The notes under the pieces are model-generated. The model had not been told where the DNA came from, ran no database searches, and saw only the letters and a list, made by a program, of their open reading frames with translations. Position numbers and translations under genes: made by a program. A stretch of 64,000 bases of DNA from Oceanospirillum maris DSM 6286 (GTDB lineage Bacteria; Pseudomonadota; Gammaproteobacteria; Pseudomonadales; Halomonadaceae), in the NCBI RefSeq assembly GCF_000422865.1, contig NZ_AUGW01000011.1, forward strand, positions 124,001 through 188,000, in the 5' to 3' direction. This document shows, in pieces, positions 1 through 61,449 of this stretch; position 1 is the first letter of the stretch; each line of letters opens with the position of its first letter.

Positions 1-557
1 ATCGTGAAGAGCAGCAGGTGGTGATGCGCATTGTGCATAGCGTGGGAATACCGGAAATCGCCTCGCAGGTACGCTTTAGTGCTAACGCCTGTCAGAGCGG
101 TTTGGCGGCATTATCCAATAACGAGCACAGGATCTTATGCGATGTCGAGATGGTTAAGCAGGGGATAACCAAGCGGATGATTGATCGTGAGCCACTTTGT
201 TTTTTGAACCATTCAGAGACTCAATCCCTTGCTAAAGAGCGTGGTGAAACACGATCTATGGCTGCGTTAGAGCTATGGCGGCCACGGTTAAAAGGCAGTG
301 TTGTTTTGATCGGCAATGCCCCTACGGCCCTGTTCCGGTTGTTGGAGATGATCCATCAAGGGGCCGATAGACCTGCGTTGATTATCGGAATGCCCGTGGG
401 CTTTGTCGGCGCGGAGGAGTCGAAAGCGGCACTGTGGCAGAGCCATCAGGATTTGGAGATAGAGTGCATTACCCTGTTGGGGCGGCAGGGTGGTAGCGCG
501 GTAACGTCTGCCAGCTGCAATGCTTTGTTGCGCTGTTTACGCGGAGAGTTCTACTGA
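1..557 (+). CDS. cobH: precorrin-8X methylmutase, 5' partial
   Basis: Moves the C11 methyl group of precorrin-8X to C12, giving hydrogenobyrinate, in corrin ring synthesis in the cytoplasm. The reading frame is open from base 3 at the window edge (REEQQVVMRIVHS...), so the true start lies upstream and about 30 residues are missing against the usual ~210. Family features are the ILCDVEMVKQGI stretch, the GETRSMAALELW block, the GNAPTALFRLLE block and the GMPVGFVGAEESK block near the C-terminus. Its TGA overlaps the ATG of cobL by one base, so the genes are translationally coupled. Identification is secure; only the N-terminus is unseen. Confidence 0.95.
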   Translation, partial: REEQQVVMRIVHSVGIPEIASQVRFSANACQSGLAALSNNEHRILCDVEMVKQGITKRMIDREPLCFLNHSETQSLAKERGETRSMAALELWRPRLKGSVVLIGNAPTALFRLLEMIHQGADRPALIIGMPVGFVGAEESKAALWQSHQDLEIECITLLGRQGGSAVTSASCNALLRCLRGEFY

Positions 558-2062
558 TGCTGCATGTGATCGGGCTTTCTGTCGATGGCGGTTCTGTCGA
601 TGGCGGTTCTGTCAATGGCAGTTCTGTCAATGATGGTACAGGGCTATTAACACCTGAGGCTTGCGCAGTGCTCTACGATGCCGCACTGGTAATAGGTTCT
701 AATCGGCAACTGGCTTTGGTTGAGCATTTATGGCAGGGACTTGAGTCTAGTCCTAAATCTAAACCTAGATATAAACCCGCAACCCTTGAACTGCCTAAGT
801 TAAAGCAGCTAAAGGCGGTGATTACACCCTATTTGGATCAAGGGCAGTCTGTGGTGGTGTTAGCCTCCGGTGATCCGCTTTTTTATGGTATTGGCCGTTG
901 GTTGGGACGGCAAGGGTTTCAGCCTGAACAGCTGCAGTTTTATCCGGCGGTTTCCAGCGTACAAGTGGTCTGTCATCGACTGGGCTTATCGCTACAGGAT
1001 GTGGAGGTTGTTAGCCTGCACGGGCGACCTTTAAACACCTTACGCCGCCACCTTAAACAGCGGAGCACACTGGTGCTTCTGACCGATTCGAAAAGCTATC
1101 CCCAAGCCATTGCTCAGTTATGCCTTGATACGGGGTTTACAGATTTTGAGCTAACTCTATGTGAAAACCTAGGCTATCCGCAGGAGCAGATTCGTCGTTA
1201 TAAAAGCACTTACCCAGAAAGCGATTTCTTAGAGAGCACTTTCTTAGAGAGAACTTTCTTAGAGAGCATTTGTTTAGAAAGACATATCTGGCCGGATGAT
1301 GATGTTGCCCCTTTGCACATTACTGTGTTGCGGCTCAATCAGGTGGATCATTCCCGAGGTTATCTGCCAGAGTTTCCCGGTATTGCTGATGCTGATTTTA
1401 TTACCCATATCGATAAGCAGGTGGTAGATGAGCAGGTGGGCTCTCGTTCTGGGGCTGGTTCGATTCAGAGCTCAAAAGGGCGGACGAGTGCGATGTTGAC
1501 TAAGCGAGAGGTTCGTTTGGGTATTTTGTCTCTGTTGCAGCTTGGTGCTGAAGAGACTCTGTGGGATATCGGTGCGGGTTGTGGCGGTGTGGCGGTAGAG
1601 CTGAGCTTTTGGCAGCCAAGGGCCCAGGTGTTTGCGATTGAGCATCATCCAGAGCGCTTTGCTTGCCTTGAAGCCAACCGCCAGCGCTTTGGTGTCTCCG
1701 CCAACCTGATACCCGTTCAAGGGCGTGCGCCGGATGTTTTAGCTGAGCTTCCCCCAGCCAATAAGGTCTTCATTGGCGGTAGTGATGGTGAGTTGTCGGC
1801 GCTATTAACACGCTGTTGGCAACAGTTGCCAGAGCATGGGGTTTTGGTGGCAAGCGCCGTTACCGAGAACAGTCGTCAAACCTTGTTGCGCTTTTTGGAT
1901 GATGGGCTGCAGGGGCAGTGTGAAACCCTGCAAATAGCGGTTAGTAAAGGCGATCAACTGGCAGGACAGTTGCTTTATCGACCGGCATTGCCCGTCACTC
2001 TGTTTAAGTTCAGCAAGCATCGTGTTAAACGCAATCAGAACAGTGGAGCACAAGGGTTATGA
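557..2062 (+). CDS. cobL: precorrin-6Y C5,15-methyltransferase (decarboxylating), CbiE-CbiT fusion
   Basis: Bifunctional AdoMet enzyme that methylates C5 and C15 of precorrin-6B and decarboxylates the C12 acetate. Residues ~1-260 form the CbiE tetrapyrrole methylase domain (VVLASGDPLFYGIG; FYPAVSSVQVVCHRLGLS). Residues ~310-480 form the CbiT Rossmann methyltransferase (TKREVRLGILSLL, then DIGAGCGGVAVELS as AdoMet loop). It has 501 residues where fused CobL proteins usually have about 400. The excess is largely in-frame tandem repeats at residues 9-28, 66-73, 219-243 and 286-295, which lie at the N-terminus, in a CbiE loop, at the end of CbiE and in the interdomain linker. It overlaps cobI by 4 bp. 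Confidence 0.95.
   Translation: MLHVIGLSVDGGSVDGGSVNGSSVNDGTGLLTPEACAVLYDAALVIGSNRQLALVEHLWQGLESSPKSKPRYKPATLELPKLKQLKAVITPYLDQGQSVVVLASGDPLFYGIGRWLGRQGFQPEQLQFYPAVSSVQVVCHRLGLSLQDVEVVSLHGRPLNTLRRHLKQRSTLVLLTDSKSYPQAIAQLCLDTGFTDFELTLCENLGYPQEQIRRYKSTYPESDFLESTFLERTFLESICLERHIWPDDDVAPLHITVLRLNQVDHSRGYLPEFPGIADADFITHIDKQVVDEQVGSRSGAGSIQSSKGRTSAMLTKREVRLGILSLLQLGAEETLWDIGAGCGGVAVELSFWQPRAQVFAIEHHPERFACLEANRQRFGVSANLIPVQGRAPDVLAELPPANKVFIGGSDGELSALLTRCWQQLPEHGVLVASAVTENSRQTLLRFLDDGLQGQCETLQIAVSKGDQLAGQLLYRPALPVTLFKFSKHRVKRNQNSGAQGL
581..640 (+). repeat. 15-bp in-frame tandem array, 4 units (cobL N-terminus)
   Basis: Four consecutive 15-bp units: GTCGATGGCGGTTCT twice exactly, then two diverged copies starting GTCAATG. 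They encode VDGGS-VDGGS-VNGSS-VNDGT, inserted between the first beta strand (HVIGLS) and the expected continuation of the CbiE fold. Divergence rises toward the 3' end, which suggests unequal age of copies. Confidence 0.9.
752..775 (+). repeat. 12-bp in-frame tandem duplication in cobL
   Basis: Two 12-bp units (CCTAAATCTAAA and CCTAGATATAAA, two mismatches) encoding PKSK-PRYK in a loop of the CbiE domain. Weaker than the 15-bp arrays in the same gene and listed because it fits the same pattern. Confidence 0.6.
1211..1285 (+). repeat. 15-bp in-frame degenerate tandem array, ~5 units (cobL)
   Basis: Core units TTCTTAGAGAGCACT, TTCTTAGAGAGAACT and TTCTTAGAGAGCATT at 1226-1270, flanked by one diverged copy on each side. 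They encode repeats of the type FLEST-FLERT-FLESI near the end of the CbiE domain, where the fold has a variable loop. Three core copies differ by one base each. Confidence 0.9.
1412..1441 (+). repeat. 15-bp in-frame tandem duplication (cobL linker)
   Basis: GATAAGCAGGTGGTA followed by GATGAGCAGGTGGGC, 12 of 15 identical, encoding DKQVV-DEQVG in the linker between the CbiE and CbiT domains. Confidence 0.75.
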
Positions 2063-2799
2063 GTCTAAGCGATCAGCAAACACAGGGCCGATTAATTGGC
2101 GTAGGGGTTGGCCCCGGTGATCCCGAGCTATTGACCTTAAAAGCTCTACGCCAGATTCAACGGGCTCCTGTGATTAGCTACTTAGCTAATGCAGAAGGCC
2201 GCTCTCAGGCAAAAGAGATTGCCCGTGAGGCCTTTGTCGGCTTACCACCGGATCACCCACTACGGGAGATTCCTATTGTTATGCCCATGAGCACTGACCG
2301 CCGTCTTGCAAACCAAGCCTACGATCACGCCGCCACTCAAATTGCCAAGGCGTTGACCCAAGGGCTTGATGTGGTGTTTTTGTGCGAGGGTGATCCGCTG
2401 TTCTTTGGCTCTTTTGCTTATTTGTTGGAGCGTTTGCAGGGGCAGTTTACTACCCAAGTTGTGCCCGGTATTTCATCGGTACATGCGGCGGCAGCTCAGT
2501 TACAACAGGCGTTAACCTTGCAACAAGAATCCTTTGCGGTGGTGAGTGGTCGCCATACGGATCAGCAAATTCGTCAAACGCTACAGAACCATGATTCTGT
2601 GGTGATTATGAAAGCGGGGTTGGCTCGACCGCGTATTTTAGCGCTTTTGGCGGAAACCCAGCGCAGCGCCGATGCCCGTTATCTGGAATATATTGGCCGT
2701 GATAATCAGCGGATTGAACCGGATGTTACGCAGTTGGTGGCGGAGTCTGGGCCTTACTTTTCGCTATTTGTGGTTACTCGACAGGCGGCGCGGCTGTGA
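2059..2799 (+). CDS. cobI: precorrin-2 C20-methyltransferase
   Basis: Class III AdoMet tetrapyrrole methylase adding the C20 methyl group to precorrin-2. The glycine-rich N-terminal motif GVGVGPGDPELLTLKAL, the LCEGDPLFFGSFAYLLERL substrate/AdoMet loop and VVPGISSVHAAAA are visible; 246 residues is normal for the family. SYLANAEGRSQAKEIARE near residue 40 is typical of CobI/CbiL and distinguishes it from CobJ and CobM. It overlaps cobL by 4 bp and cbiG by 4 bp, consistent with one polycistronic message. It contains none of the tandem repeats seen in the adjoining cobL. Confidence 0.95.
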   Translation: MSLSDQQTQGRLIGVGVGPGDPELLTLKALRQIQRAPVISYLANAEGRSQAKEIAREAFVGLPPDHPLREIPIVMPMSTDRRLANQAYDHAATQIAKALTQGLDVVFLCEGDPLFFGSFAYLLERLQGQFTTQVVPGISSVHAAAAQLQQALTLQQESFAVVSGRHTDQQIRQTLQNHDSVVIMKAGLARPRILALLAETQRSADARYLEYIGRDNQRIEPDVTQLVAESGPYFSLFVVTRQAARL

Positions 2800-3602
2800 T
2801 CACACTTTTTAGTTTAACCGAGCAAGGCTTGGCATTGGCTGAACGACTGATACAGCCTTTAGAGGTGCTAGGCTATCGCAGCCAAATTGAGCATAGGGCC
2901 AAGCCTTTTATACCACGGGTGCAACAGGTTTTTGCTGAGGCCGCTCCCCAGCAGGATGCGTTGGTTTTTATCTGCGCCACCGGCATTGTGATGCGGGCCT
3001 TAGGGCCGGTACTCAAAGATAAGTATCAGGATGCGCCGGTGCTGGTACTGGATGAGTGCGGTCAATTTGTGATTCCGCTGCTGTCCGGTCATGAAGGCGG
3101 TGCGAACCATTTGACACAACAGTTAGCCATACAGATTCAGGCACAGCCAGTGATTACCACCGCGCAGTCCTATCTTAATCCCCGCTACTGTATTGGGATG
3201 GGGTGTGAACGCCACTGCCCATTGGACGACCTTGAATGCTTATTAATGTCCTGTCTGGCGAAGGCCGGTATCCCGCTGTCACAGGTCGAGAGTTTGCACA
3301 GTATTGATATTAAAGCTGATGAGCAGGGGTTGATCACCCTAGCGGAAAAGTTAGGCCTCCCATTTTTCACTTGGCACAAAGATCAGCTGAATATGATGGA
3401 CCAGCGGCTAAGCACTCGCTCAGAGTATGTTTTTAATACGGTGGGCGTTTATGGCGTAGCAGAGTCCGCCGCTTTATATGGCGCTGATCAGAACCAGAAC
3501 TTAAACAAGAGCAGGGCAGAGTCAGAGCTGGTACTGCCTAAACACAAAAATCCCCGTGCGACCTGTGCTATTGCCCGATTTTATCGAGGAGATAAAACCT
3601 GA
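2796..3602 (+). CDS. cbiG: cobalt-precorrin-5A hydrolase-like protein, short form without central domain
   Basis: CbiG opens the delta-lactone of cobalt-precorrin-5A and releases the C20 carbon as acetaldehyde in the cobalt-early (anaerobic) pathway. Residues ~1-120 match the CbiG N-terminal domain (FICATGIVMRALGPVLKDKY, LDECGQFVIPLLSGHEGGAN, PVITTA). Residues ~128-265 match the C-terminal CobE/CbiG domain (IGMGCERHCPLDDLE, SIDIKADEQGL). These are joined almost directly, so the central module of canonical ~310-350-residue CbiG is absent and the total is 268. The start is GTG or a near-overlapping codon at 2796, overlapping cobI. Whether this short form performs lactone hydrolysis or acts like aerobic-pathway CobE cannot be told from sequence alone. 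Confidence 0.85.
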   Translation: MITLFSLTEQGLALAERLIQPLEVLGYRSQIEHRAKPFIPRVQQVFAEAAPQQDALVFICATGIVMRALGPVLKDKYQDAPVLVLDECGQFVIPLLSGHEGGANHLTQQLAIQIQAQPVITTAQSYLNPRYCIGMGCERHCPLDDLECLLMSCLAKAGIPLSQVESLHSIDIKADEQGLITLAEKLGLPFFTWHKDQLNMMDQRLSTRSEYVFNTVGVYGVAESAALYGADQNQNLNKSRAESELVLPKHKNPRATCAIARFYRGDKT

Positions 3603-3618
3603 TGAGAAAGCGATCATA

Positions 3619-4500
3619 ATGAGAAAACAACTGTATGTCGTCGGTATCGGCCCCGGTGATTTAGAACTGGTAGCCCCTAAGGCACTTAAAGCGATTCAAG
3701 CCAGTAGTGATTTAGTGGCTTACGGCCTTTATTTAGATCTATTAGGCGATCTGTGCCAGAACAAAGAGCACCACGACCTGCCTTTAGGTGAGGAGATTGG
3801 CCGCGCGCGTTTGGCTCTTGATTTAGCCGCTAGCGGTAAAACAACGGCTCTAATCTCCAGTGGTGATATCGGCATCTATGCGATGGCAACCTTGGTGTTT
3901 GAGCTGTTAGATCAGCAGTTACAGGGATTGGAGCAGCATCCAGAATGGCTGGATGTGGATATTGAGGTGATCCCTGGCATCTCCGCGATGCAGGCCGGAG
4001 CCAGTCGTGTGGGGGCTTTGCTCGGCCATGATTTTTGCACCATCTCCTTATCAGACCTGCTTACGCCCTGGGAAACCATCGACCAGCGTATTCATAGCGC
4101 AGGGCAAGGGGATTTTGTTGTCTCCTTCTACAATCCTGTTTCGAAAAAACGGGATTGGCAGCTCAACCATGCTCGGGATGTGCTTTTGCAATATCGACCG
4201 GCCAGCACACCAGTTCTTATTGGACGACAGTTAACCCGCAGTGATGAACAGATTCGTATTGTGCGCTTAGATCAACTGGATGCCTCACAGGTTGATATGT
4301 TCACCATGGTTAGCGTGGGTAATAGCGAGTCCCGTCATATTATTAACGGCAGTAAAGAGTGGCTTTATACCCCTAGGGGTTACCGTAAAAAGCTAAAAAC
4401 TGGCGGTACAGGTGTTGATGAGACCGATGTTGATGGCACCGATGTTGATGGCACCGATGTTGATAGGACAGAAAACGTCTTGCAAGAGGTAACCGTATGA
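3619..4500 (+). CDS. cobJ: precorrin-3B C17-methyltransferase
   Basis: Methylates C17 and drives ring contraction of precorrin-3B. Motifs are YVVGIGPGDLELVAPKA, ALISSGDIGIYAMATLVFE, VIPGISAMQAGASRVGALLGHDF and SFYNPVSKKRDWQL, all typical of CobJ/CbiH. I chose ATG 3619 because the protein then begins directly at the first beta strand and a GAGAAAG stretch lies 8 bases upstream; an in-frame upstream start at 3556 would overlap cbiG by 47 bp and add residues absent from the family. The last ~30 residues carry four 5-residue repeats (VDETD-type) beyond the normal C-terminus. The ATGA overlap with cobM shows coupling. Confidence 0.94.
   Translation: MRKQLYVVGIGPGDLELVAPKALKAIQASSDLVAYGLYLDLLGDLCQNKEHHDLPLGEEIGRARLALDLAASGKTTALISSGDIGIYAMATLVFELLDQQLQGLEQHPEWLDVDIEVIPGISAMQAGASRVGALLGHDFCTISLSDLLTPWETIDQRIHSAGQGDFVVSFYNPVSKKRDWQLNHARDVLLQYRPASTPVLIGRQLTRSDEQIRIVRLDQLDASQVDMFTMVSVGNSESRHIINGSKEWLYTPRGYRKKLKTGGTGVDETDVDGTDVDGTDVDRTENVLQEVTV
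4411..4470 (+). repeat. 15-bp in-frame tandem array, 4 units (cobJ C-terminus)
   Basis: GATGTTGATGGCACC occurs twice exactly (4426-4455), flanked by two diverged copies (GGTGTTGATGAGACC and GATGTTGATAGGACA). Encodes GVDET-DVDGT-DVDGT-DVDRT after the conserved end of CobJ. Confidence 0.92.
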
Positions 4501-5264
4501 CCGTTTATTTTATAGGTGCAGGCCCCGGCGATCCTGAGCTGATGACCCTAAAAGGCCAGCGTCTTCTGCAGGCTTGTCCTGTGGTGCTGTATGCGGGCTC
4601 TTTGATTCCCCGAGAGGTTGTTGCCAGTGTTGAGGGCAAGGCTGAGGTCATTGCGGATACAGCCCAGCTAAATCTGGATGAGATTATGCTTTATATTACC
4701 GCCGCCCATGACAAAGGGCAGGACGTTGCCCGTTTGCAGTGTGGTGATCCGGCTCTTTATGGTGCTATTGGTGAACAGATCCGGCGCTTAGAGCATGAGG
4801 GTATTCCCTATGAGGTGATCCCCGGTGTAAGTGCTGTATCCGCATCGGCGGCTTATCTGGGGAAAGAACTCACGTTATCCGGTGTCTCACAAACCTTAAT
4901 TTTGACCCGTTACGAGGGTAAAACCCCGTTCCCCGAGCGGGAACGTTTACCTGAATTGGCCCGTAGTGGCGCAACACTAGCGATTCACTTAGGCGTTACC
5001 CGTATCCATAAAATTGTGGCAGAGCTGATACCTCATTACGGCGAAGACTGCCCGATTGCGGTCTGTTATCGCAGCTCTTGGCCAGACCAAGATAAAGTGA
5101 CCGGCACTTTAAAGGATATTGTCGCTAAAGTGCGTGCTAAGGGGTTTACCCGAACCAGTTTGATTTTGGTGGGGCATGTTTTAGACAGTGATGACTTTGC
5201 CGATTCCTATTTGTATCACAAGGATCAGGCCCATGTTTTTCGGCCTAGGGTTCGTGGATTATAA
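4497..5264 (+). CDS. cobM: precorrin-4 C11-methyltransferase
   Basis: Adds the C11 methyl group to precorrin-4. Class III methylase features are YFIGAGPGDPELMTLKGQRLL, the [13 protein letters not shown] segment specific to CobM/CbiF, RLQCGDPALYGAIGEQIRRL and VIPGVSAVSASAAYLGKELT. At 255 residues it is of normal length and, unlike cobL and cobJ, carries no tandem repeat in its coding part. It overlaps cobJ by 4 bp. Its stop codon lies inside the first unit of a 16-bp tandem repeat that fills the cobM-cobW gap. Confidence 0.95.
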   Translation: MTVYFIGAGPGDPELMTLKGQRLLQACPVVLYAGSLIPREVVASVEGKAEVIADTAQLNLDEIMLYITAAHDKGQDVARLQCGDPALYGAIGEQIRRLEHEGIPYEVIPGVSAVSASAAYLGKELTLSGVSQTLILTRYEGKTPFPERERLPELARSGATLAIHLGVTRIHKIVAELIPHYGEDCPIAVCYRSSWPDQDKVTGTLKDIVAKVRAKGFTRTSLILVGHVLDSDDFADSYLYHKDQAHVFRPRVRGL

Positions 5265-5301
5265 GATCCGCAGATTATAAGTCCCGCGGATTAAAAACAG
5301 C
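5254..5301 (+). repeat. 16-bp tandem array, ~3 units, spanning cobM stop
   Basis: Units GTGGATTATAAGATCC, GCAGATTATAAGTCCC and GCGGATTAAAAACAGC. The first unit contains the cobM stop codon; the rest is intergenic. The period need not be a multiple of three here because it lies outside the frame. Confidence 0.75.
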
Positions 5302-5337
5302 GTTAATAAGCAAACAGACAGAGCGAGCGAGCACAGG

Positions 5338-6444
5338 ATGCAACTGAATAAAATTCCCGCCACGATTGTTACTGGTTTCTTAGGCAGTGGTAAAACCACT
5401 CTATTATCGAACTTACTAAAACAAGCGGCTGGCAAGCGTATTGCGGTGATTGTGAACGAGTTTGGTGAGCTGGATATTGATTCTGAACTGCTACGTTCGT
5501 GTCCTTTGGAGTGCGAAACAGATGGTCAGGATGGTGTTGATGGACAGAACGTCGTCGATGGACAGAACACCCTAGGAACAAAAGGTATTTACGAACTGGC
5601 TAACGGCTGTATCTGCTGCACGGTAGAGGAAGAGTTCTTACCGGTTATGCAGCAATTGGTGGCGCGCCGCCATGATATTGACCATATCTTGATTGAAACC
5701 AGTGGACTTGCACTGCCTAAGCCTCTGGTTCAGGCGTTTAACTGGCCTGACATTAAACAGTTCTGCACCGTTGATGCGGTGATTACACTGGTTGATGGCC
5801 CCGCCGTTGCTGCGGGTCGCTTTGCGGATAACGAGGCCCGTGTCCAAGCTCAGCGCCTTGCGGATGAAAGTCTTGATCATGATCCTAGCTTGCAAGAACT
5901 GTTGGACGACCAGCTCAGTGCCGCCGATTTAGTGATTGTCAGCAAGCAAGACCTGCTATCTGAGGCGGAGCAAGAAACCGTCGCCAAAGTGGTTGCCGAG
6001 CAGGTGTCCGACAAGGTGAAAACCCTGTATTTGGATCACCATGCAACGGATCTTAATCTGCTTTTGGGTGTGGGTGCTGCCACAGAAGAGCATATTAACG
6101 AGGTACATAATCACCACGATCATCACCATAGTCATGGTGCTCATCACGAACATGCCCATGATCATTTTGACTCCTTTGTGGTCACCCTGCCGGAAGTGGA
6201 TAGCGAGCGCCTACAGGCTTGTTTGAACCAACTGCTGCAGCAACAGAATATCTTTCGCATTAAAGGCTTTGCGGCCTTGCCGGATAAACCGATGCGGCAG
6301 GTTTTACAGGCGGTAGGTCAACGTTTGGAATGTTACTTTGATCGCCTGTGGCAATCGAATGAAGCCCGTCAAACGCAGTTGGTCTTTATTGGTAAAGGTA
6401 TCCATCAAGCCGATATTGAAGCGGTACTGAACAAGGCGGTCTGA
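5338..6444 (+). CDS. cobW: CobW-type G3E GTPase, cobalt metallochaperone
   Basis: GTP-dependent metal chaperone thought to supply Co(II) to the cobaltochelatase CobN. Motifs in order are Walker A GFLGSGKTTLL (residue ~13), NEFGELDID, the metal-binding GCICCTVEEE (CxCC type), ETSGLALP as Walker B, SKQDLL as guanine-specificity motif, a His-rich stretch (HNHHDHHHSHGAHH, residues ~258-277) and the CobW C-terminal domain. Tandem repeats with an 18-bp period insert about 17 residues at 62-78, just before the CICC motif. It sits directly between cobM and cobN, one base from cobN, fitting delivery of cobalt to CobN. Confidence 0.95.
   Translation: MQLNKIPATIVTGFLGSGKTTLLSNLLKQAAGKRIAVIVNEFGELDIDSELLRSCPLECETDGQDGVDGQNVVDGQNTLGTKGIYELANGCICCTVEEEFLPVMQQLVARRHDIDHILIETSGLALPKPLVQAFNWPDIKQFCTVDAVITLVDGPAVAAGRFADNEARVQAQRLADESLDHDPSLQELLDDQLSAADLVIVSKQDLLSEAEQETVAKVVAEQVSDKVKTLYLDHHATDLNLLLGVGAATEEHINEVHNHHDHHHSHGAHHEHAHDHFDSFVVTLPEVDSERLQACLNQLLQQQNIFRIKGFAALPDKPMRQVLQAVGQRLECYFDRLWQSNEARQTQLVFIGKGIHQADIEAVLNKAV
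5521..5571 (+). repeat. 18-bp in-frame tandem array, ~2.8 units (cobW)
   Basis: GATGGTCAGGATGGTGTT, GATGGACAGAACGTCGTC, then GATGGACAGAACACC. Encodes DGQDGV-DGQNVV-DGQNT between the switch region and the CICC metal motif. Confidence 0.85.
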
Positions 6445-6445
6445 T

Positions 6446-9400
6446 ATGCATCTGTTAGCGGCGCAGCCCGGTGGTTTTGTGGACGATGAAGGTATTGTCG
6501 ATTTACAGCAAAGCCCTGGGGATCTGGTTATTTTGGCGGCAGCAGACACTAGCCTTGCAGCTTTGTCTGCTGGAGTTTCTCGTTTTTCGGACGCTTTGGC
6601 CACAGGCGTTAGCTCTGATAAACATGAACCCAGAATCCGGTTGGCAAACTGGATGCAGCTATTAAAACCTGCGGCCTATGATCTGTATGAAAGCGCCGTG
6701 CTGGAAGAAACAGAGTTGGTGGTGGTGTCACTATTAGGTGGGCAAAGTTATTGGCCCTATGGGTTTGAGCGGTTGCAGCGTTGGAGTGAAGGCTATACTT
6801 CCAAGGGGAAAAAACGTCAGTTGATTCTGGTGCCTGGGGATAACAGCCCTGACCTTGAGCTGTTCGGTGCCTCTAATGTGGCAAAAGACATTTGTTTAAA
6901 AGTTTGGGCTTATCTGCGTCAAGGGGGCGTGGCAAACAGTGAAAATCTGCTGCGCTTTTTAATGGATCAGCTATTGCTTGATTCGTTCTTAGCGGATGAC
7001 CGATTAAGTGATCGTTCGCCTGCAAGAGCTTATCTTCACGCATGGCAAGAGCCACAAATGTTGCCTAACGCCTTGGTTTATCAAGAGGCTGATACTCCAT
7101 CAGATCAACCGGTCTGTGTGCTGCTGTTTTATCGCAGCCATCTTCAAAGCGCAAACACGCAGGTGTTTGATCAGTTCTTAGCCCTGTTACGCCAACAAGG
7201 ACTTAATCCTCTGGCAGTGGCGGTATCCTCTCTTAAAGATGCTGAATCCCTTACTTTGGTCAATCAGTTGGTGGAAGCACATAACGCCTGCTTGATTTTA
7301 AATAGCACCAGCTTTGCCAGTAATCGTGTTCAACAGAATCAGACGTATCAGAATCAGAGTCGTGCTCATCGGGACATCCTTGAACAGGGCGTAAGCTCTG
7401 AGCCAACCCTGTTTGATTCCCCTTTTGAACGCCAGATTCCGGTGCTGCAGCTGATTCTATCCGGTAGCACTCAAGAGGATTGGCAGCAATACAGCCAGGG
7501 ATTACGCAGCAGAGATATTGCTATGCAGGTGGTACTGCCAGAGATGGACGGTCGTATTATCAGTCGTGCGATTAGTTTTAAAGCCCAATCTCATTTTGAT
7601 GAACGCTGCCAGCTTCCTGTGGTGCGTTACCAATTGCATCAGGAGCGTGCCACCTTCGTTGCTCAGTTGGCAAAGGCCTATTGTCGTTTAGGGGCAAAGG
7701 CGAATAAAGACAAACGTATTGCACTTATTTTAGCCAACTACCCCACTAAAGATGGTCGTATCGGCAATGGTGTTGGGTTGGATACACCGCAATCCATGGT
7801 CAATATTCTGCGGGCGTTGGCCGAGGCGGGCTATCCATTACCCGAGCATGATTTGCCGCAATCTGGAACAGAGCTGATTGAATGGTTGCTGGAGTCGGTA
7901 ACGAATAACCCCAATACGCTGCATCAACTGCCCTGCTGGCAAAGTATGGCGCTGAATGAATACCAACAGTATTTTGAGCAGTTGCCGGAGGCTAACCAGC
8001 AAGCGGTATTGCAGCGTTGGGGAATGCCTCAGCAAGATATAAAATACCGCGCCGGTCGATTGATGCTATCAGGCTTGCGTTTGGGGGATGTCTTTATCGG
8101 TATTCAACCTGCACGGGGTTTCAATATTGATCTGGTCGCTAACTATCACGACCCTGATCTTGTGCCGCCCCACAGTTATCTGGCGTTTTATTTTTGGCTA
8201 CGACACTGCTATCAAGTGGACGCGGTGGTGCATGTGGGTAAACACGGCAATTTAGAATGGCTGCCCGGCAAGGGAACCGCCTTATCGGCTCAGTGTTGGC
8301 CGGATATTGCCCTTGGCCCATTGCCGCATTTTTATCCCTTTATCGTTAATGACCCCGGAGAAGGCGCGCAGGCTAAGCGTCGTACTCAGGGGGTTATTAT
8401 TGATCATCTGATGCCACCGATGACTCGGGCTGAAAGCTATGGCGAGCTGGCAGAGCTGGAGAATCTCGTGGATGAGTATTATCAAGCTCTGGGGATGGAT
8501 CAACGCCGTGAAGACTGGCTCAAACAAGAGATTCTAAAGCAGGTGCAAAGCAGTCATCTGTTGGAAGAATTAGGCTTAAATATATCTGAACCCCCATCAA
8601 CTGAACCCCCATCAACTGAACCCCCATCGATTGAACGCCTATCGACAAAAGGCGTTGATGATAATCAGGTTCTAGAGCAGTTAGATGCCTATCTCTGTGA
8701 GATTAAAGAAGCTCAGATTCGGCACGGCCTGCATATTTTAGGGCAGCTACCGGAGCGGGATAAGCTAGCGGATACCTTAGTGGCTTTGTTGCGACTTCCT
8801 CGGGGTAGCACTCCTGAGAGCCAAGGTATTCTGCATAATCTTAGTCAAGACTTAGGTTTGGCTGTTACACAGGCTGATGGCGGTATATTTAATCCCCTAA
8901 AAGCCGATGCAGAACCTTGGCTAGGAGCCAAGCCTGATATTCTCGTCGCACAAAGCACTCGTCCGTGGCGCACCCGTGCAGATACCCGAGAGCGATTAGA
9001 GCTATTGGCGCTGGCGCTGATTCAGCGTTATTTATTAGACGATGACTCCTGTTCTAATTCTGATACGGCGAATGGCTTTAGTTTAGATTTAGCACGCTTA
9101 CCCCGAACGGCACAGCAATTTGAATATGTGGAAAATAGATTATTCAAAGCATTGCAACAAAGTGCTCATCTAGAATTACACTCTTTGGTTTCAGGTCTTA
9201 ATGGGCAGTTTGTACCGCCGGGGCCAAGTGGCGCACCGACTCGGGGGCGGTTAGATACGCTGCCAACGGGGCGTAATTTTTTCTCCTTAGATAGCCGCGC
9301 TATTCCATCGCCTGCTGCTTGGGCTATTGGCGAACGTTCCGCTGAGGCGTTGATCCAGAGGCACCTGCAAGAGCAGGGCGATTACCCGAAACAGCTAGGA

Positions 9401-10531
9401 TTATCGGTTTGGGGGACGGCGACCATGCGTACCGGTGGCGATGATATTGCTCAGGCTTTTGCGTTAATGGGCATACGTCCGGTATGGGCTAGCGGCTCTA
9501 ACCGCGTGGTGGATTTTGAGATCGTCAGCTGCTTACGCCTAGGTCGTCCAAGGGTTGATGTTACCTTGCGGGTGTCAGGCTTTTTTCGTGATGCCTTCCC
9601 TAATGTGATGAAGCTTTATGATGCGGCGGTACAGGCCTTGGTGGATTACCAAGAGGCGGGTAACGGCAATACCATTAAAGCTCATATTGTTAAGCGTCAG
9701 CAGGGGTTAATTGCAGAGGGGCTTAGCTCTGCACAGGCGCTACGCCAAGCCAGTTATCGCGTTTTTGGTAGCAAACCGGGAGCCTACGGCGCGGGTTTAC
9801 AGGGGTTAATTGATGAGCGTTGTTGGGAGAAAAAGAGCGACTTAGCGGAGGCTTATCTCAATTGGGGGGGATATGCCTATGGCAGCGGTACCGATGAGGA
9901 TTCATCATCAGATCAACCCTCTGGCGACGGTGTGGCAGCACATCAAGCCTTTGAGTATCGTCTTTCTCAGTTGGAGGCGGTGGTGCAAAACCAGGACAAC
10001 CGAGAACATGATCTGCTGGATTCCGATGATTACTATCAGTTTCAAGGCGGCATGAGCAACGCGGTTACTGTGTATTCTGGCACAACACCGCAGGTCTATC
10101 ATGGGGATCACTCAAATCCTGCAGACCCTAACATTCGCACCTTAAAAGAAGAGTTGAATCGCGTCATCCGCAGTCGGGTGTTAAATCCTAAATGGATTAA
10201 TGGGATGCGAGAGCATGGTTACAAAGGCGCCTTTGAGATGGCGGCCAGTGTTGATTACCTCTTCGCCTATGATGCAACCACAGACCTGATTGACGATTAC
10301 CAATATGAAAAAGTGGCCGATGCGCTGGTGCTTGATACGACCAATCAAGCGTTTTTGCAGGAGCATAACCCCAATGCATTGGAAGAGATGGCGGAACGCC
10401 TAATGGAGGCGATCCAGCGCGGGCAATGGCAGCAGCCAGAACATTATCAGCAACAGTTACAGCAGTTGCTATTGGCATTAGATGAAGCCCGAGAAGGTTT
10501 ATCTTCGATAGGTAAACCTGAGTTATTTTAG
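6446..10531 (+). CDS. cobN: cobaltochelatase large subunit CobN
   Basis: Large, substrate-binding subunit of the ATP-dependent cobaltochelatase that inserts cobalt into hydrogenobyrinate a,c-diamide in the cobalt-late pathway; homologous to the magnesium chelatase H subunit. Diagnostic blocks are NYPTKDGRIGNGVGLDTPQS, VHVGKHGNLEWLPGKG, PPGPSGAPTRGRLDTLPTGRN and DAFPNVMKLYDAAV. At 1361 residues it is longer than the usual ~1250-1280; part of the excess is two tandem arrays at residues ~296-305 and ~715-734. It starts one base after the cobW stop. The AAA+ partners (CobS/CobT or ChlI/ChlD types) are not in this window. Confidence 0.96.
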   Translation: MHLLAAQPGGFVDDEGIVDLQQSPGDLVILAAADTSLAALSAGVSRFSDALATGVSSDKHEPRIRLANWMQLLKPAAYDLYESAVLEETELVVVSLLGGQSYWPYGFERLQRWSEGYTSKGKKRQLILVPGDNSPDLELFGASNVAKDICLKVWAYLRQGGVANSENLLRFLMDQLLLDSFLADDRLSDRSPARAYLHAWQEPQMLPNALVYQEADTPSDQPVCVLLFYRSHLQSANTQVFDQFLALLRQQGLNPLAVAVSSLKDAESLTLVNQLVEAHNACLILNSTSFASNRVQQNQTYQNQSRAHRDILEQGVSSEPTLFDSPFERQIPVLQLILSGSTQEDWQQYSQGLRSRDIAMQVVLPEMDGRIISRAISFKAQSHFDERCQLPVVRYQLHQERATFVAQLAKAYCRLGAKANKDKRIALILANYPTKDGRIGNGVGLDTPQSMVNILRALAEAGYPLPEHDLPQSGTELIEWLLESVTNNPNTLHQLPCWQSMALNEYQQYFEQLPEANQQAVLQRWGMPQQDIKYRAGRLMLSGLRLGDVFIGIQPARGFNIDLVANYHDPDLVPPHSYLAFYFWLRHCYQVDAVVHVGKHGNLEWLPGKGTALSAQCWPDIALGPLPHFYPFIVNDPGEGAQAKRRTQGVIIDHLMPPMTRAESYGELAELENLVDEYYQALGMDQRREDWLKQEILKQVQSSHLLEELGLNISEPPSTEPPSTEPPSIERLSTKGVDDNQVLEQLDAYLCEIKEAQIRHGLHILGQLPERDKLADTLVALLRLPRGSTPESQGILHNLSQDLGLAVTQADGGIFNPLKADAEPWLGAKPDILVAQSTRPWRTRADTRERLELLALALIQRYLLDDDSCSNSDTANGFSLDLARLPRTAQQFEYVENRLFKALQQSAHLELHSLVSGLNGQFVPPGPSGAPTRGRLDTLPTGRNFFSLDSRAIPSPAAWAIGERSAEALIQRHLQEQGDYPKQLGLSVWGTATMRTGGDDIAQAFALMGIRPVWASGSNRVVDFEIVSCLRLGRPRVDVTLRVSGFFRDAFPNVMKLYDAAVQALVDYQEAGNGNTIKAHIVKRQQGLIAEGLSSAQALRQASYRVFGSKPGAYGAGLQGLIDERCWEKKSDLAEAYLNWGGYAYGSGTDEDSSSDQPSGDGVAAHQAFEYRLSQLEAVVQNQDNREHDLLDSDDYYQFQGGMSNAVTVYSGTTPQVYHGDHSNPADPNIRTLKEELNRVIRSRVLNPKWINGMREHGYKGAFEMAASVDYLFAYDATTDLIDDYQYEKVADALVLDTTNQAFLQEHNPNALEEMAERLMEAIQRGQWQQPEHYQQQLQQLLLALDEAREGLSSIGKPELF
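7331..7360 (+). repeat. 15-bp in-frame tandem duplication (cobN)
   Basis: CAACAGAATCAGACG followed by TATCAGAATCAGAGT, encoding QQNQT-YQNQS in a variable loop of CobN. Confidence 0.75.
8588..8647 (+). repeat. 15-bp in-frame tandem array, 4 units (cobN)
   Basis: GAACCCCCATCAACT twice exactly (8588-8617), then GAACCCCCATCGATT and GAACGCCTATCGACA. Encodes EPPST-EPPST-EPPSI-ERLST in a linker after the LEELGLN segment. First copies are identical, later ones diverged, as in the cobL N-terminal array. Confidence 0.93.
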
Positions 10532-10583: not shown

Positions 10584-11666
10584 ATGGCAAAGCAAGGCAT
10601 TATGGTGTGTGGGCACGGTAGCCGAGATAAAGATGCTGAACGTGAGTTTGGCCGTGTGGCAGAAGGGCTAAAAAAACGTTTTCCCGATCTACCTGTGGAA
10701 TATGGCTTTTTGGAGTTTTCTGCACCGAATATCCATATGGGCTTAAATGCGTTAGTGGATCAAGGTGTTGAAGAAATTTATGCCGTACCGGGAATGCTAT
10801 TTGCCGCGACCCATGCCAAAAATGATATTCCTTCAGTGTTGACCACGTTTCAGGATTCTCAGCGGGGTTTAACGGTTAAATACGGCAGTGAGCTGGGTTT
10901 GCATGATGCGATGATCTCCGCCTTTCAGACCCGGATTTATGAGTCATTAGGCCTGGATGCGAATAACCCACCAGACAACTTATATGACACATTACTGGTG
11001 GTGGTGGGACGTGGCACATCTGATACACATGCGAATGCGGAGGCTGCAAAGCTAACCCGAATCGTCAACGAGAATATGGGCTTTGGTTGGGCGGATACCG
11101 TGTATTCCGGCGTTACCTACCCTTCTGTTGGGGTTGGCTTAGAGAAGCTACTCAAATTGGGTTATAAGCGAGTGGTTATTGCCCCTTACTTCCTGTTCAC
11201 CGGACGTTTGATTAAGCGGATTTACGGCTACGTTGATAAAGTTGCGGCGGAAAATCCAGAGATCGAGTTTATTAAGGCGCAGTACTTAAACGACCATGAA
11301 AAAGTGATCGACGCTTTTGAAGTTCGCGTACGGGAGATTATGCAGCAAGACGAAGCTGGGCCAGAAAGTCTAATGAGCGCCTTTAAGCGCCGTTTAGCGT
11401 CTGGTGAGGTGGATATTCATCACCATCATGCAGAGTTTCAGCCTCATAAACACTCACATGATCACGGTCATCATCATTCCCATGATCATTCCCACAGCCA
11501 TAGTCACGGTGTTTACCGGCATATAGGCCATCCTTTAGGCCCAAGAACCATGATAGGTGAGAATATTTGCTGCTGCTTTATGGGACAGTTCCCTCAATCT
11601 ATCTTAGATGAGGAGCAGGAGCGTATCGCACTAAACTGCCCTGAAAATGCTTTAGCCCATCGTTAG
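10584..11666 (+). CDS. cbiX: CbiX-type sirohydrochlorin cobaltochelatase, large form with His-rich tail
   Basis: ATP-independent class II chelatase that in the cobalt-early pathway inserts Co(II) into sirohydrochlorin. Two chelatase repeats are visible: residues ~1-120 with the active-site HGSRD motif at ~11, and ~130-250 with VVGRGTSD at the equivalent position. A His-rich tail follows (HHHHAEFQPHKHSHDHGHHH and onward, ~277-312), then a conserved ending with the Cys cluster ENICCCFMGQF. Such tails in CbiX are proposed to store cobalt or carry an Fe-S cluster. It is 52 bp behind cobN with its own GGGAGA ribosome-binding site, probably in the same operon. A general CbiX/SirB role is likely; the exact metal is inferred from context. 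Confidence 0.88.
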   Translation: MAKQGIMVCGHGSRDKDAEREFGRVAEGLKKRFPDLPVEYGFLEFSAPNIHMGLNALVDQGVEEIYAVPGMLFAATHAKNDIPSVLTTFQDSQRGLTVKYGSELGLHDAMISAFQTRIYESLGLDANNPPDNLYDTLLVVVGRGTSDTHANAEAAKLTRIVNENMGFGWADTVYSGVTYPSVGVGLEKLLKLGYKRVVIAPYFLFTGRLIKRIYGYVDKVAAENPEIEFIKAQYLNDHEKVIDAFEVRVREIMQQDEAGPESLMSAFKRRLASGEVDIHHHHAEFQPHKHSHDHGHHHSHDHSHSHSHGVYRHIGHPLGPRTMIGENICCCFMGQFPQSILDEEQERIALNCPENALAHR

Positions 11667-20343: not shown

Positions 20344-21564
20344 CTATACGCTGAATTCGCCACTAAGGTTTCGTTGAAATGCTATTTTAACGTCTTCTAT
20401 GGATAAACCAGACATGAGCAACAAGCTTAGTTTGCTAAAAGCAGCTTCGCAGGTCATATCAAAAGCACTAATAATACCGGCCTTCGCTAAGGCAGAACCT
20501 GCCGCGTAGTTTGTACTGACAGAGCCTTGTGGGCACTGGCTGCGATTGACGATAATAATGCCTTGATCAGTTGCTGCTTTTAATGCGGCTAATAATGGTT
20601 GGTTCAGATCTGGGGCATTGCCGCTACCATAGCTTTCTAATACGACCCCTTTTATGGGTGAAGCCAGCAAGCTGCCCACTTGATGGGCTTGAATCCCAGG
20701 CCAAAGCTTTAAAATAACCACTTGGGCGTCCGACACCTGAAGCTGCGGCTTTGGGGTTATTTTAGTGATGGTGGTGATTGTCTCCGTGCTTGGCGCTTTT
20801 TGAGTGTTTGGTTGTAGTTTGCCATGATTGTAAAAGCGTAGCGGCTCGGTGTTTGGGCTATCAAACCCCTGTGGTGAGTAGGTGCTTACCTTCGTCATAC
20901 GGTTGCCTTGCAGTATTTTGCCGCCAAAGACACCGGATACACCAAGTTCTGAAGGCGTACTATTGCTGATGGGTGGTGATACCTGTTGTTCAAGACTATT
21001 TTTTTCTGGGCTATTTTGTTTAAGACTTTTTTGATGAGAGCTAAGCTGAGTATAAAGCAGTGCGCCTTCAATATTGTTGATCGCATCGGTATTGTCAGCT
21101 TCTAACGGATACTGAGAACCCGTGATCAATATTTTTTTGTTTGAGGGGGCGATAAAACTGAGAGCAGAAGCGGTATAGGCCAAAGTGTCTGTGCCGTGCA
21201 AAATAATAAAGGCGTGGTACTGTGCGGCATATTGATGAATGAGCTGATTGAGCTGCAACCAATCATGGGGTGTGGCGTTCGAGCTATCAATTAAGCGGGG
21301 TAATGTTATTAAGTCAAAGTTTGGTAGGGCTTGAAAGCGTTCTGAGGGCAATCGCAACAGGGCTTTTAACAGGCGCTGGGACATATTCCCCCCAGGTATT
21401 AGGCCCTGTTCACTGTTAACCATGCCGATGGTGCCGCCCGTATAAATGACGGCAACCGGCAGCAGGTCTTGTTGAGGGCTTTTTTGCCCGCCAGCATTGT
21501 TTGATGCATCAAGAGTATGTAGCTGAATACGTATGATTTCTGGTTGTTCGGCAGGTGATTGCAT
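20344..21564 (-). CDS. ansA: type I (cytoplasmic) L-asparaginase
   Basis: Hydrolyses asparagine to aspartate and ammonia. The first catalytic Thr lies in VIYTGGTIGMVNSEQGL (residues ~37-53), the second in ILHGTDTLAYTASALSF, with ITGSQYPLEADNTDAINNI following. No signal peptide, consistent with the low-affinity cytoplasmic AnsA class. It has 406 residues against about 340 in E. coli AnsA. The excess is an N-terminal extension, an insertion around residues 175-205 containing a 15-bp-period repeat, and a Thr/Ile-rich stretch (TETITTITKITPK) near 260-275. Good AAGGA ribosome-binding site before ATG 21564. Confidence 0.9.
   Translation of the reverse strand: MQSPAEQPEIIRIQLHTLDASNNAGGQKSPQQDLLPVAVIYTGGTIGMVNSEQGLIPGGNMSQRLLKALLRLPSERFQALPNFDLITLPRLIDSSNATPHDWLQLNQLIHQYAAQYHAFIILHGTDTLAYTASALSFIAPSNKKILITGSQYPLEADNTDAINNIEGALLYTQLSSHQKSLKQNSPEKNSLEQQVSPPISNSTPSELGVSGVFGGKILQGNRMTKVSTYSPQGFDSPNTEPLRFYNHGKLQPNTQKAPSTETITTITKITPKPQLQVSDAQVVILKLWPGIQAHQVGSLLASPIKGVVLESYGSGNAPDLNQPLLAALKAATDQGIIIVNRSQCPQGSVSTNYAAGSALAKAGIISAFDMTCEAAFSKLSLLLMSGLSIEDVKIAFQRNLSGEFSV
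20983..21027 (-). repeat. 15-bp in-frame tandem array, 3 units (ansA)
   Basis: On the coding strand AGTCTTAAACAAAAT, AGCCCAGAAAAAAAT and AGTCTTGAACAACAG, encoding SLKQN-SPEKN-SLEQQ. Same unit size as the cob operon arrays but unrelated in sequence, and inside a family-atypical insertion. Confidence 0.8.
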
Positions 21565-22055: not shown

Positions 22056-23231
<1,176 letters not shown>

Positions 23232-60701: not shown

Positions 60702-60993
60702 CGAGACTCTGAGTGTAGAGGAACTTGGTAACAAGTTGCTCCAATCTGTTAAAGAAATGAAAGCCGGAAAAGCTGCACGAGTTAGTCGTGTTGAGCCTAA
60801 CGAGGTTGCAGAGGCCCGCGGCAAAACTGGCCTGACTCAGATAGAGTTTGCTGAAGTACTGCATATCTCTCCGCGTACTCTGCAGGAGTGGGAGCAAGGT
60901 CGACGTAAACCTTCTGGTCCAGCAAAAGCGCTGATCGAGATTGCCTTTCGCCATCCAGAGGTAATTCGGGAAGATCTTGAACTAAGAGGTTAA
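60694..60993 (+). CDS. higA: HigA-type antitoxin, XRE-family HTH
   Basis: 99 residues with MINETLSVEELGNKLLQSVK, RVSRVEPNEVAEARGKTGLTQ and the XRE HTH EFAEVLHISPRTLQEWEQGRRKPSGPAKAL. Helix-turn-helix proteins of this length directly behind RelE/HigB toxins bind the toxin and repress the pair. The ATG lies inside the last codons of the toxin remnant. It appears intact although its toxin is frameshifted, the arrangement expected when toxin loss is tolerated. Confidence 0.88.
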   Translation: MINETLSVEELGNKLLQSVKEMKAGKAARVSRVEPNEVAEARGKTGLTQIEFAEVLHISPRTLQEWEQGRRKPSGPAKALIEIAFRHPEVIREDLELRG

Positions 60994-61449
60994 TCGGATA
61001 GCCGAGGGTTTCTAGCCCTCAGCCCCCACAACACCCTGCATGCGGCTCCGCACAGGGCGTTTCCTAAAGATGCTTAAAGCAAGATGGCCGATTAGCTCCG
61101 ACTTACTCCAATGCTGGCTTCTGCTTTTGCGCCAATGTTTCTTAGCTCGGTCGGGAATGAAACGTTGAGCTCTGCTCGTTTTGTCCGACTTAATGCTCGG
61201 TTTACCGGTGCGGCGAGATTGGATAAGCTGTAAAATCAATGCATTATGGAAACCGTGCTTGTCCTTTTTTTAAGAGCACAGGCGCACGGCTGCTCTTGAA
61301 TTAAAGAGCGCGACTATGCGCATGCGCATTTAGCAGGGAAGCAGTCAGATCAGAAAACGGATTTTTCCTTTCTAATCAAACTCTTTCCTCGATATCTGTC
61401 GGTATATTGAAATCGGCAAAATAAGCATGCCTATGATTAAAATAATGAG
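60994..61449. other. 456-bp gene-free stretch with a structured segment
   Basis: Minus-strand bases ~61060-61000 fold into CCCTG-TGCGG-AG-CCGCA-TG-CAGGG followed by a second hairpin GAGGGCTAGAAACCCTC. Such 3' blocks are, from memory, often next to group II intron reverse transcriptases, but none is present here. Around 61314-61330 is the self-complementary ATGCGCATGCGCAT. A minus-strand open frame at 61012-61239 has no family. I see no intact gene. Confidence 0.35.

Follow-up and report, generated by a model that had tools for sequence, protein, structure and literature searches.

Short in-frame tandem repeats and insertions concentrated in the corrin-ring operon of Oceanospirillum maris

The stretch of DNA analysed here, hereafter the window, comprises 64,000 nucleotides of Oceanospirillum maris DSM 6286 (contig NZ_AUGW01000011.1, positions 124,001 to 188,000; genome of 3.71 Mb) and opens within an operon for synthesis of the corrin ring of cobalamin, several of whose enzymes carry short tandem repeats in frame. 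Its open reading frames (ORFs), taken as the longest open frames and in some cases, such as cobJ, starting too far upstream, read in order cobH, cobL, cobI, cbiG, cobJ, cobM, cobW and cobN (positions 18-10531), followed at the operon end by a gene at 10584..11666 that we take to be cbiX-like, as did a preliminary description made from the letters alone and without a family call; its His-rich tail varies among aligned relatives. The operon as a whole spans 18.8 kb and 16 ORFs (G000:C7:116891-135670) and begins upstream of the window, where the same contig (stretch L147, just before the window) carries a cobalamin riboswitch at the operon head (RF00174, 86.8 bits, L147:11515-11768), cbiM, a NikL-family gene, cbiQ, cbiO, a chlID-type chelatase gene, cbiD and cobK, with the names cbiM and cbiQ presumed from the look and place of the genes and not from a family call. 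CbiE, CbiT, CobI, CobJ, CobM, CobW, CobN and CbiD scored above curated family cut-offs, and CbiG, CobK, CbiO and the chlID-type protein fell below their NCBI cut-offs; CobH entered the family scan truncated at the window start. Features within the operon are on the plus strand, and the frames of the array-bearing genes are open, as the preliminary description had stated.

That description had placed tandem repeats in cobL, cobJ, cobW and cobN, and when arrays were scored with Tandem Repeats Finder (TRF) and with an in-frame scan limited to periods that are multiples of three, four of them proved strong. Two lie in cobL (557..2062), which encodes a CbiE-CbiT fusion of 501 residues (TIGR02467 and TIGR02469 above cut-off) and has the highest insertion load of the window genes: an array encoding VDGGS/VNGSS in the N-terminal loop of CobL (577..640; TRF 577-632, 15 bp x 3.7, score 91) and one encoding FLEST/FLER in a further loop (1211..1291; TRF 1225-1282, score 81 at period 15 and 88 at period 30). 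The third, encoding DVDGT, belongs to a C-terminal extension of CobJ (4396..4497; TRF 4413-4464, 15 bp x 3.5, score 90), and the fourth, encoding EPPST, lies in a CobN loop (8586..8650; TRF 8586-8643, 15 bp x 3.4, score 88). All four kept period 15 when all periods were scanned, and their head-to-tail units exceed chance, as in coding minisatellites. In three of the four, two identical neighbouring copies stand beside diverged ones, and over the four arrays neighbouring units differ by 18 non-synonymous as against 3 synonymous codon changes.

The other repeats were fainter. In cobW, an 18/15-bp repeat encoding VDGQN in the loop preceding the GCICC motif (5521..5571) is moderate, with an in-frame score of 12 and no TRF call at score 30, and three more are weak: a 12-bp repeat in a CobL loop (752..790; 752-777 has a TRF score of 38 and stays below 10 in the in-frame scan), a 15-bp repeat in the CbiE/CbiT linker of CobL (1412-1441, within an insert at 1412..1483) and a 15-bp repeat in the CobN insert TYQNQSRAHRDILEQG (7331-7360, within 7331..7390). 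The last two, each with an in-frame score of 10 and uncalled by TRF at 30, are near chance level as repeats; a single codon shuffle yielded 6.6 arrays per 100 kb of score at least 10 in background genes and none in the operon. A further CobN insert, LDSFLADDRLSDRSPAR (6977..7027), displays no array. Nor is the pattern confined to the four genes first named, for it extends upstream of the window to cbiO, the chlID-type gene, cbiD and cobK, and among the genes that had been described as lacking clear arrays (cobI, cbiG, cobM and cbiX) cbiX carries a weak His-rich repeat (score 11) of a kind also present in relatives; cobM (4497..5264) is without any insert relative to the congener O. beijerinckii. 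A phase-variable contingency locus was considered and rejected, since the strong arrays consist of 15-bp units inside genes and would switch neither frame nor promoter.

To determine how far these segments are shared, each protein was aligned with its relatives (24 for CobL, 46 for CobJ, 80 for CobW and 77 for CobN), using the best-scoring ORF per locus and dropping weaker matches by score. Mean column occupancy in the relatives was 0-0.07 at the strong array sites (0.00 at the first CobL array, 0.00-0.06 at the second, 0.06 in CobJ and 0.07 in CobN) and 0.05 in CobW, identifying the arrays as lineage-specific insertions, as had been proposed. The weak repeats lie in inserts too, with occupancies of 0.08 at cobL 1412, 0.00 at cobN 7331 and 0.21 at cobL 758-790, and the array-free CobN insert has a mean occupancy of 0.06.

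The earlier placement of the arrays in loops, linkers and termini was likewise borne out by the alignments, by AlphaFold models of CobL and CobW (each built on our own alignment) and by the CobN structure 9uk9_A. In the CobL model the predicted local distance difference test score (pLDDT) falls below 50 at residues 12-27, 221-244, 290-293 and 295-314, which are the sites of the N-terminal array, of the second array and of the CbiE/CbiT linker insert, respectively; the segment near 68-78, at the weak 12-bp repeat, stays above 50 (block means 63 and 88). In the CobW model, whose mean is only 70, pLDDT falls below 50 at 49-82, again the insert site. Low-pLDDT stretches also occur off the inserts in both models. 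The CobN array falls mostly in a gap of the solved CobN chain.

We then asked whether the genome as a whole is richer in such arrays than its relatives, the outcome on which the preliminary description had staked its reading, and it is not. Period-15 coding arrays of score at least 15 number 4 in a 702-kb coding sample of this genome (0.57 per 100 kb), compared with rates of 0.88 for O. beijerinckii (3 in 341 kb), 0.74 and 0.76 for two other congeners (1 in 135 kb and 1 in 132 kb) and 0.47 across the 80 named loci (7 in 1,480 kb), which rules out genome-wide repeat proneness as judged from the sampled rates. The first 10.5 kb of the window alone hold 4. Stretch L156, which carries a CRISPR-like array of period 60 (L156:16278-18825) and supplied 9 of the 31 coding matches in the period-15 count, was left out of later counts.

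The array excess is instead local to the corrin-ring operon, and the genome rate is normal. The operon holds 14 in-frame arrays of score at least 10 where 2.4 are expected (a figure based on 118 such arrays in 933 kb of coding sequence elsewhere in the genome), 9 of score at least 12 where 0.8 are expected, and 6 of score at least 15 where 0.4 are expected; multiplication by the 197 places possible gives Poisson values of 5e-5, 5e-5 and 6e-4, respectively, which serve only as guides because the region was selected on account of the finding. Its density of weak arrays is 74.5 per 100 kb against a background of 12.6, and 38 other 20-kb stretches hold 0 to 7 arrays of score at least 10. The flanks lie slightly above background, with 2 arrays in 11.0 kb upstream (18.2 per 100 kb) and 3 in 15.3 kb downstream (19.6 per 100 kb), and beyond the upstream flank the adjoining 20 kb contain a single array. 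In the cobS gene (PF02654, stretch L250) and its neighbours, which we take to be cobT and cobC, arrays are either lacking or weak (score 10-13). At a threshold of 12, the background stretch with most arrays is L162, which has 4 and carries the genome's own cobB. There (L162:5098-13372) the cobB-type gene has an N-terminal 21-bp repeat, and its neighbours, presumably the F420 synthesis genes cofE, cofC, cofD, cofH and cofG from the look of their sequences, include two with low-complexity N-termini (PSPSPS, SASAPKPKP).

The insertion load goes beyond what visible arrays reveal. Compared with O. beijerinckii DSM 7166 in reciprocal best pairs (those with a length ratio outside 0.6-1.67 or fewer than 100 aligned residues being dropped), 11 of the 16 operon ORFs, the other five (cbiM, the NikL-like gene, cbiQ, cbiO and the chlID-type gene) being without a partner in the O. 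beijerinckii locus used, have 10.7 indel residues per 100 aligned, as against 1.5 in 87 other genes (Mann-Whitney p 1.5e-5), at much the same mean identity (72.6% and 73.4%). Of this load, insertions in the window species make up 3.9 and those in O. beijerinckii 6.8, compared with 0.5 and 1.0 in the other genes, and leaving out cbiX and cobL still gives 3.2 and 5.1. When 11 genes were drawn at random from 83 others 100,000 times, no draw matched the operon value, the highest reaching 3.1; an earlier run with 56 other genes had given 0.29 and 0.76 indel residues per 100. The load is uneven: CobL has 58 residues inserted relative to O. beijerinckii, cobI and cbiG (2059..3602) have few inserts here and 20 and 34 residues inserted there, and cobH has a single indel residue and cobM none.

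O. beijerinckii and O. sediminis D5 have most of their inserts in common and few visible tandem arrays. Their inserts lie in the same enzymes as those of the window species, are mostly unlike them (O. beijerinckii has a bigger, dissimilar insert at the 12-bp CobL repeat) and are mostly without visible repeats. Small indels separate the two in CobL, CobN, CbiX and CobJ, a difference between species and not between strains. The operon is thus insertion-rich beyond its visible arrays, and a second lineage of the genus has the same load, made up mostly of different inserts.

When other-genus pairs of 62-85% identity serve as the yardstick (for genes with more than 500 pairs, all Oceanospirillum pairs and 350 random others were used), the Oceanospirillum pair tops the maximum in cbiD, cobL, cobI, cobJ and cobN, though for cobL there are only 10 other-genus pairs and the Oceanospirillum pair itself is at 61%. 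It is also above the maximum in cobK, where the pair is at 55% identity and the 4 comparison pairs are at higher identity. When protein lengths are added up, the three species of Oceanospirillum rank first, at 6.5, 8.9 and 8.6% over the median, in a comparison with 21 other loci that have at least 7 of 10 genes and some of which are cut short.

Selection could be assessed in the sister pair O. beijerinckii and O. sediminis. The ratio of non-synonymous to synonymous substitution rates (dN/dS) is 0.056 over 3,855 core codons, common to the window species and outgroups, and 0.45 over 354 insert codons; for whole genes it is 0.078 in the cob set and 0.060 in 14 other genes. These ratios indicate strong purifying selection on the enzyme cores and a loose hold on the inserts. 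As a separate observation, synonymous divergence between the two species (L026, L028) is 0.31 in the cob genes as against 0.94 in the 14 others, a hint of recent exchange of the operon between them.

As for the origin of the arrays, a census of periods was made in 51 stretches of this genome for arrays of score at least 15 (L156 excluded, L147, which holds part of the operon, included, the window uncounted). All 24 coding periods are multiples of three. Of the 28 non-coding ones 7 are, and 26 fall in the range 10-24 bp. Such a pattern, in which multiples of three prevail inside genes and not outside them, is that of coding minisatellites and is what undirected duplication of short segments would leave after a frame filter. 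Fifteen bp is therefore an ordinary duplication size, given this non-coding range and the frame filter on coding periods. Slippage or misalignment is an established route to short tandem duplications. We thus consider it probable that the arrays are ordinary short tandem duplications, kept when they are in frame and fall in tolerant loops of the corrin-ring enzymes. Short stretches of about 10-24 bp would be tandemly duplicated at many sites in the genome, presumably by slippage or misalignment; within genes, the survivors would be those that keep the frame and fall in surface loops, linkers and termini. The Oceanospirillum corrin-ring operon would accept far more of them than other genes do, its cores staying conserved, and the loops and termini would expand and then diverge rather freely until their tandem origin fades from view, with the window arrays as the youngest layer. 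Repeated local duplication, already suggested in the preliminary description, is supported by the identical beside diverged copies, the frame filter and the insert status. With moderate confidence, we infer that loop tolerance, and not benefit, is the reason the inserts are retained, a claim that does not extend to the genus-specific part of the effect; inserts without visible repeats may have arisen in tandem as well.

Several points weigh against this explanation. The O. beijerinckii cob locus has only 6 arrays of score at least 10, three of them His-rich, and that of O. sediminis 4, only 1 of which is in a compared cob gene; because the inserts of these congeners are mostly without visible arrays, our confidence in the explanation as a whole is slightly reduced. 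The slippage step itself is deduced and not seen directly, the insert dN/dS of 0.45 stands on 354 codons and is below 1, and the background genes are a sample of the genome. In cobH, cobM, cobW, cbiG and cbiX the Oceanospirillum pair does not exceed the highest other-genus pair. Tolerance alone, moreover, leaves the far fewer inserts in other genera unaccounted for. A purely genus-specific reading is in turn opposed by the 80 named loci (two of them Oceanospirillum), where cob genes without cbiX have 15.2 weak arrays per 100 kb (95 arrays) and other genes 8.8 (70), and part of the effect is therefore general to cob genes. Individual loci elsewhere are high too (L088 with 59.4 and L071 with 43.6 weak arrays per 100 kb, each on about 7 kb; L080 and L039 with a length excess near 5%).

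Four other explanations were weighed. The inserts may instead be selected, as disordered polar or charged segments that serve the pathway, for instance by keeping the enzymes in contact for the transfer of unstable intermediates. That they concentrate in successive corrin-ring enzymes, in two lineages and at partly different sites, is consistent with this, as are the paucity of arrays around cobS at its separate locus and an insert dN/dS below 1. On the other hand, apart from one or two pairs, the inserts of a given genome proved to have no sequence in common, neighbouring repeat units differ chiefly by amino-acid changes, and cobH and cobM are practically insert-free. We regard such selection as unlikely, and equally so its fuller form, in which a property borne by the operon, and not its place, would drive the gain of disordered inserts, with selected flexible segments tying successive B12 enzymes together and tandem duplications serving as raw material. 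Were it true, each of two lineages would have arrived at this function with inserts of its own.

Decay or relaxed selection, under which the operon would accumulate anything, is somewhat less likely still. In its favour, of six genomes of the genus three encode a close CobN, one a distant CobN (28-35% identity) and two none, which makes the pathway patchy and perhaps dispensable. Codon adaptation in 13 of the 16 operon ORFs lies under the median of the genome, and four of the proteins fall under NCBI cut-offs, as given above. Against decay stand the open frames, the eight proteins that pass curated cut-offs, an identity to O. beijerinckii like that of other genes and, in the sister pair (which excludes the window species), cob genes that are more alike than others (96.0% over 11 cob genes, 91.0% over 14 others) with the low core dN/dS. 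Low expression was also rejected as a cause: array-bearing genes show ordinary codon adaptation (38 versus 891 genes, p 0.76), despite the 13 operon ORFs below the median.

No more credible than decay is a mutation hotspot at the operon's chromosomal position. The array excess is sharply local, the operon has a GC content of 0.498 against a background-stretch mean of 0.462 (standard deviation 0.014), and the flanks are slightly over background, on 2 and 3 arrays. The flank counts are nevertheless far under that of the operon, and cobH and cobM, inside it, are nearly or wholly free of indels. In addition, the gene directly upstream of cbiD is of the chlID type here and cobB in O. beijerinckii, yet both operons are insertion-rich, a comparison that concerns the immediate neighbour; the cobB of the window species, recognised as the partner of that of O. 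beijerinckii, lies on another contig. Decay, position and expression inferred from codon bias thus do not account for the concentration, within the limits of these tests.

Lastly, the units of different arrays had been described as unrelated, which holds for most pairs and fails for one: the arrays at cobL 577 and cobN 8586 match in inverted orientation at 12 of 15 bases, beyond chance (score 42; p 0.0002-0.0006 by column permutation, uncorrected for the 10 pairs), and the match is not explicable by shared codon use. The cobL-cobW pair gave p 0.0006, and cobL 1225 is unlike all four other operon arrays tested. In a calibration on 325 array pairs p values were near uniform and the cobL-cobN pair was unremarkable by p alone, though it had the top score among the 20 lowest-p pairs listed; given the number of comparisons, its kinship is suggestive only. 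The genome's three perfect matches to GTYGATGG-N7-GTYGATGG, a pattern picked after the arrays were seen, all lie inside the operon, and a search of 100 other genomes of the family revealed no two such matches of separate arrays less than 10 kb apart. When random coding segments served as the reference, p 0.01 was reached by 4 of 120 own insert pairs (1.2 expected) and by 7 of 153 in O. beijerinckii (1.5 expected); with codon composition kept, the figures were 2 of 156 (1.6 expected) and 5 of 182 (1.8 expected), and at p 0.005 they were 2 of 156 own comparisons where 0.8 are expected. A BLAST search of the genome with the cobL array, a weak test that misses the cobN array too, listed no further copy, and the octamers GTTGATGG, GTCGATGG and GCTGGTGG, candidates for Chi-like or over-represented sequences, showed no excess in the first 400 kb sampled. 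With own insert comparisons near chance and one or two pairs suggestive, a single mobile or ectopically copied repeat family, many copies of one sequence spreading within the operon, is very improbable.

The arrays and inserts have parallels elsewhere. Rickettsia palindromic elements are in-frame insertions in metabolic genes, and form palindromic families with many copies; the inserts described here share the first property and differ in being mostly dissimilar to each other. In the KPC enzyme, tandem duplications reportedly lie in loops. Natural tandem-repeat-mediated variants of KPC are described in the part of PMC12593533 drawn on here. Like these, the present arrays are natural tandem duplications within enzymes, but KPC is a single enzyme under drug selection, and here many enzymes of one operon are affected with no known benefit. 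The arrays also resemble bacterial coding minisatellites, or variable-number tandem repeats, in having in-frame tandem units of 10-24 bp, copies that are part identical and part diverged, and a location in low-confidence segments. Bacterial proteins rich in repeat regions are typically pathogenesis-linked binding proteins, and some repeat occurs in more than 30% of bacterial proteins by the census method, according to the passages of PMC7230257 used here; repeats are also said there to lie in disordered segments and to arise mostly by duplication (likewise, for exons, in the part of PMC12457776 used). Unlike the minisatellites of such a census, those of this operon are concentrated in cytosolic enzymes of one pathway, and unlike the proteome-wide trend of indels and repeats in disordered regions, one operon here stands about 6-fold above its own genome. 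Titles and abstract openings of the open-licence papers listed in our searches yielded nothing on inserts or repeats in Oceanospirillum cobalamin enzymes. The mutational step is ordinary; its concentration in the operon of one pathway appears to be new. Indel tolerance is usually viewed as a matter of protein fold and expression, and here the same enzymes have fewer inserts in other genera, while one genus loads much of the pathway at ordinary substitution divergence. The many insert sites, together with insert-poor relatives, form a natural set for asking whether such segments are ballast or take part in the hand-over between enzymes in B12 synthesis.

Outside the operon, the window contains a second CobW-like ORF with an 18-bp His/Asp repeat of metal-binding look (22731-22833), an ORF on the minus strand (20344-21564), presumably asparaginase-like, whose 30-bp in-frame repeat, QKSLKQNSPEKNSLEQ, is weak (score 11), and a group II intron match on the minus strand (60993-61062, RF00029, 46.9 bits).

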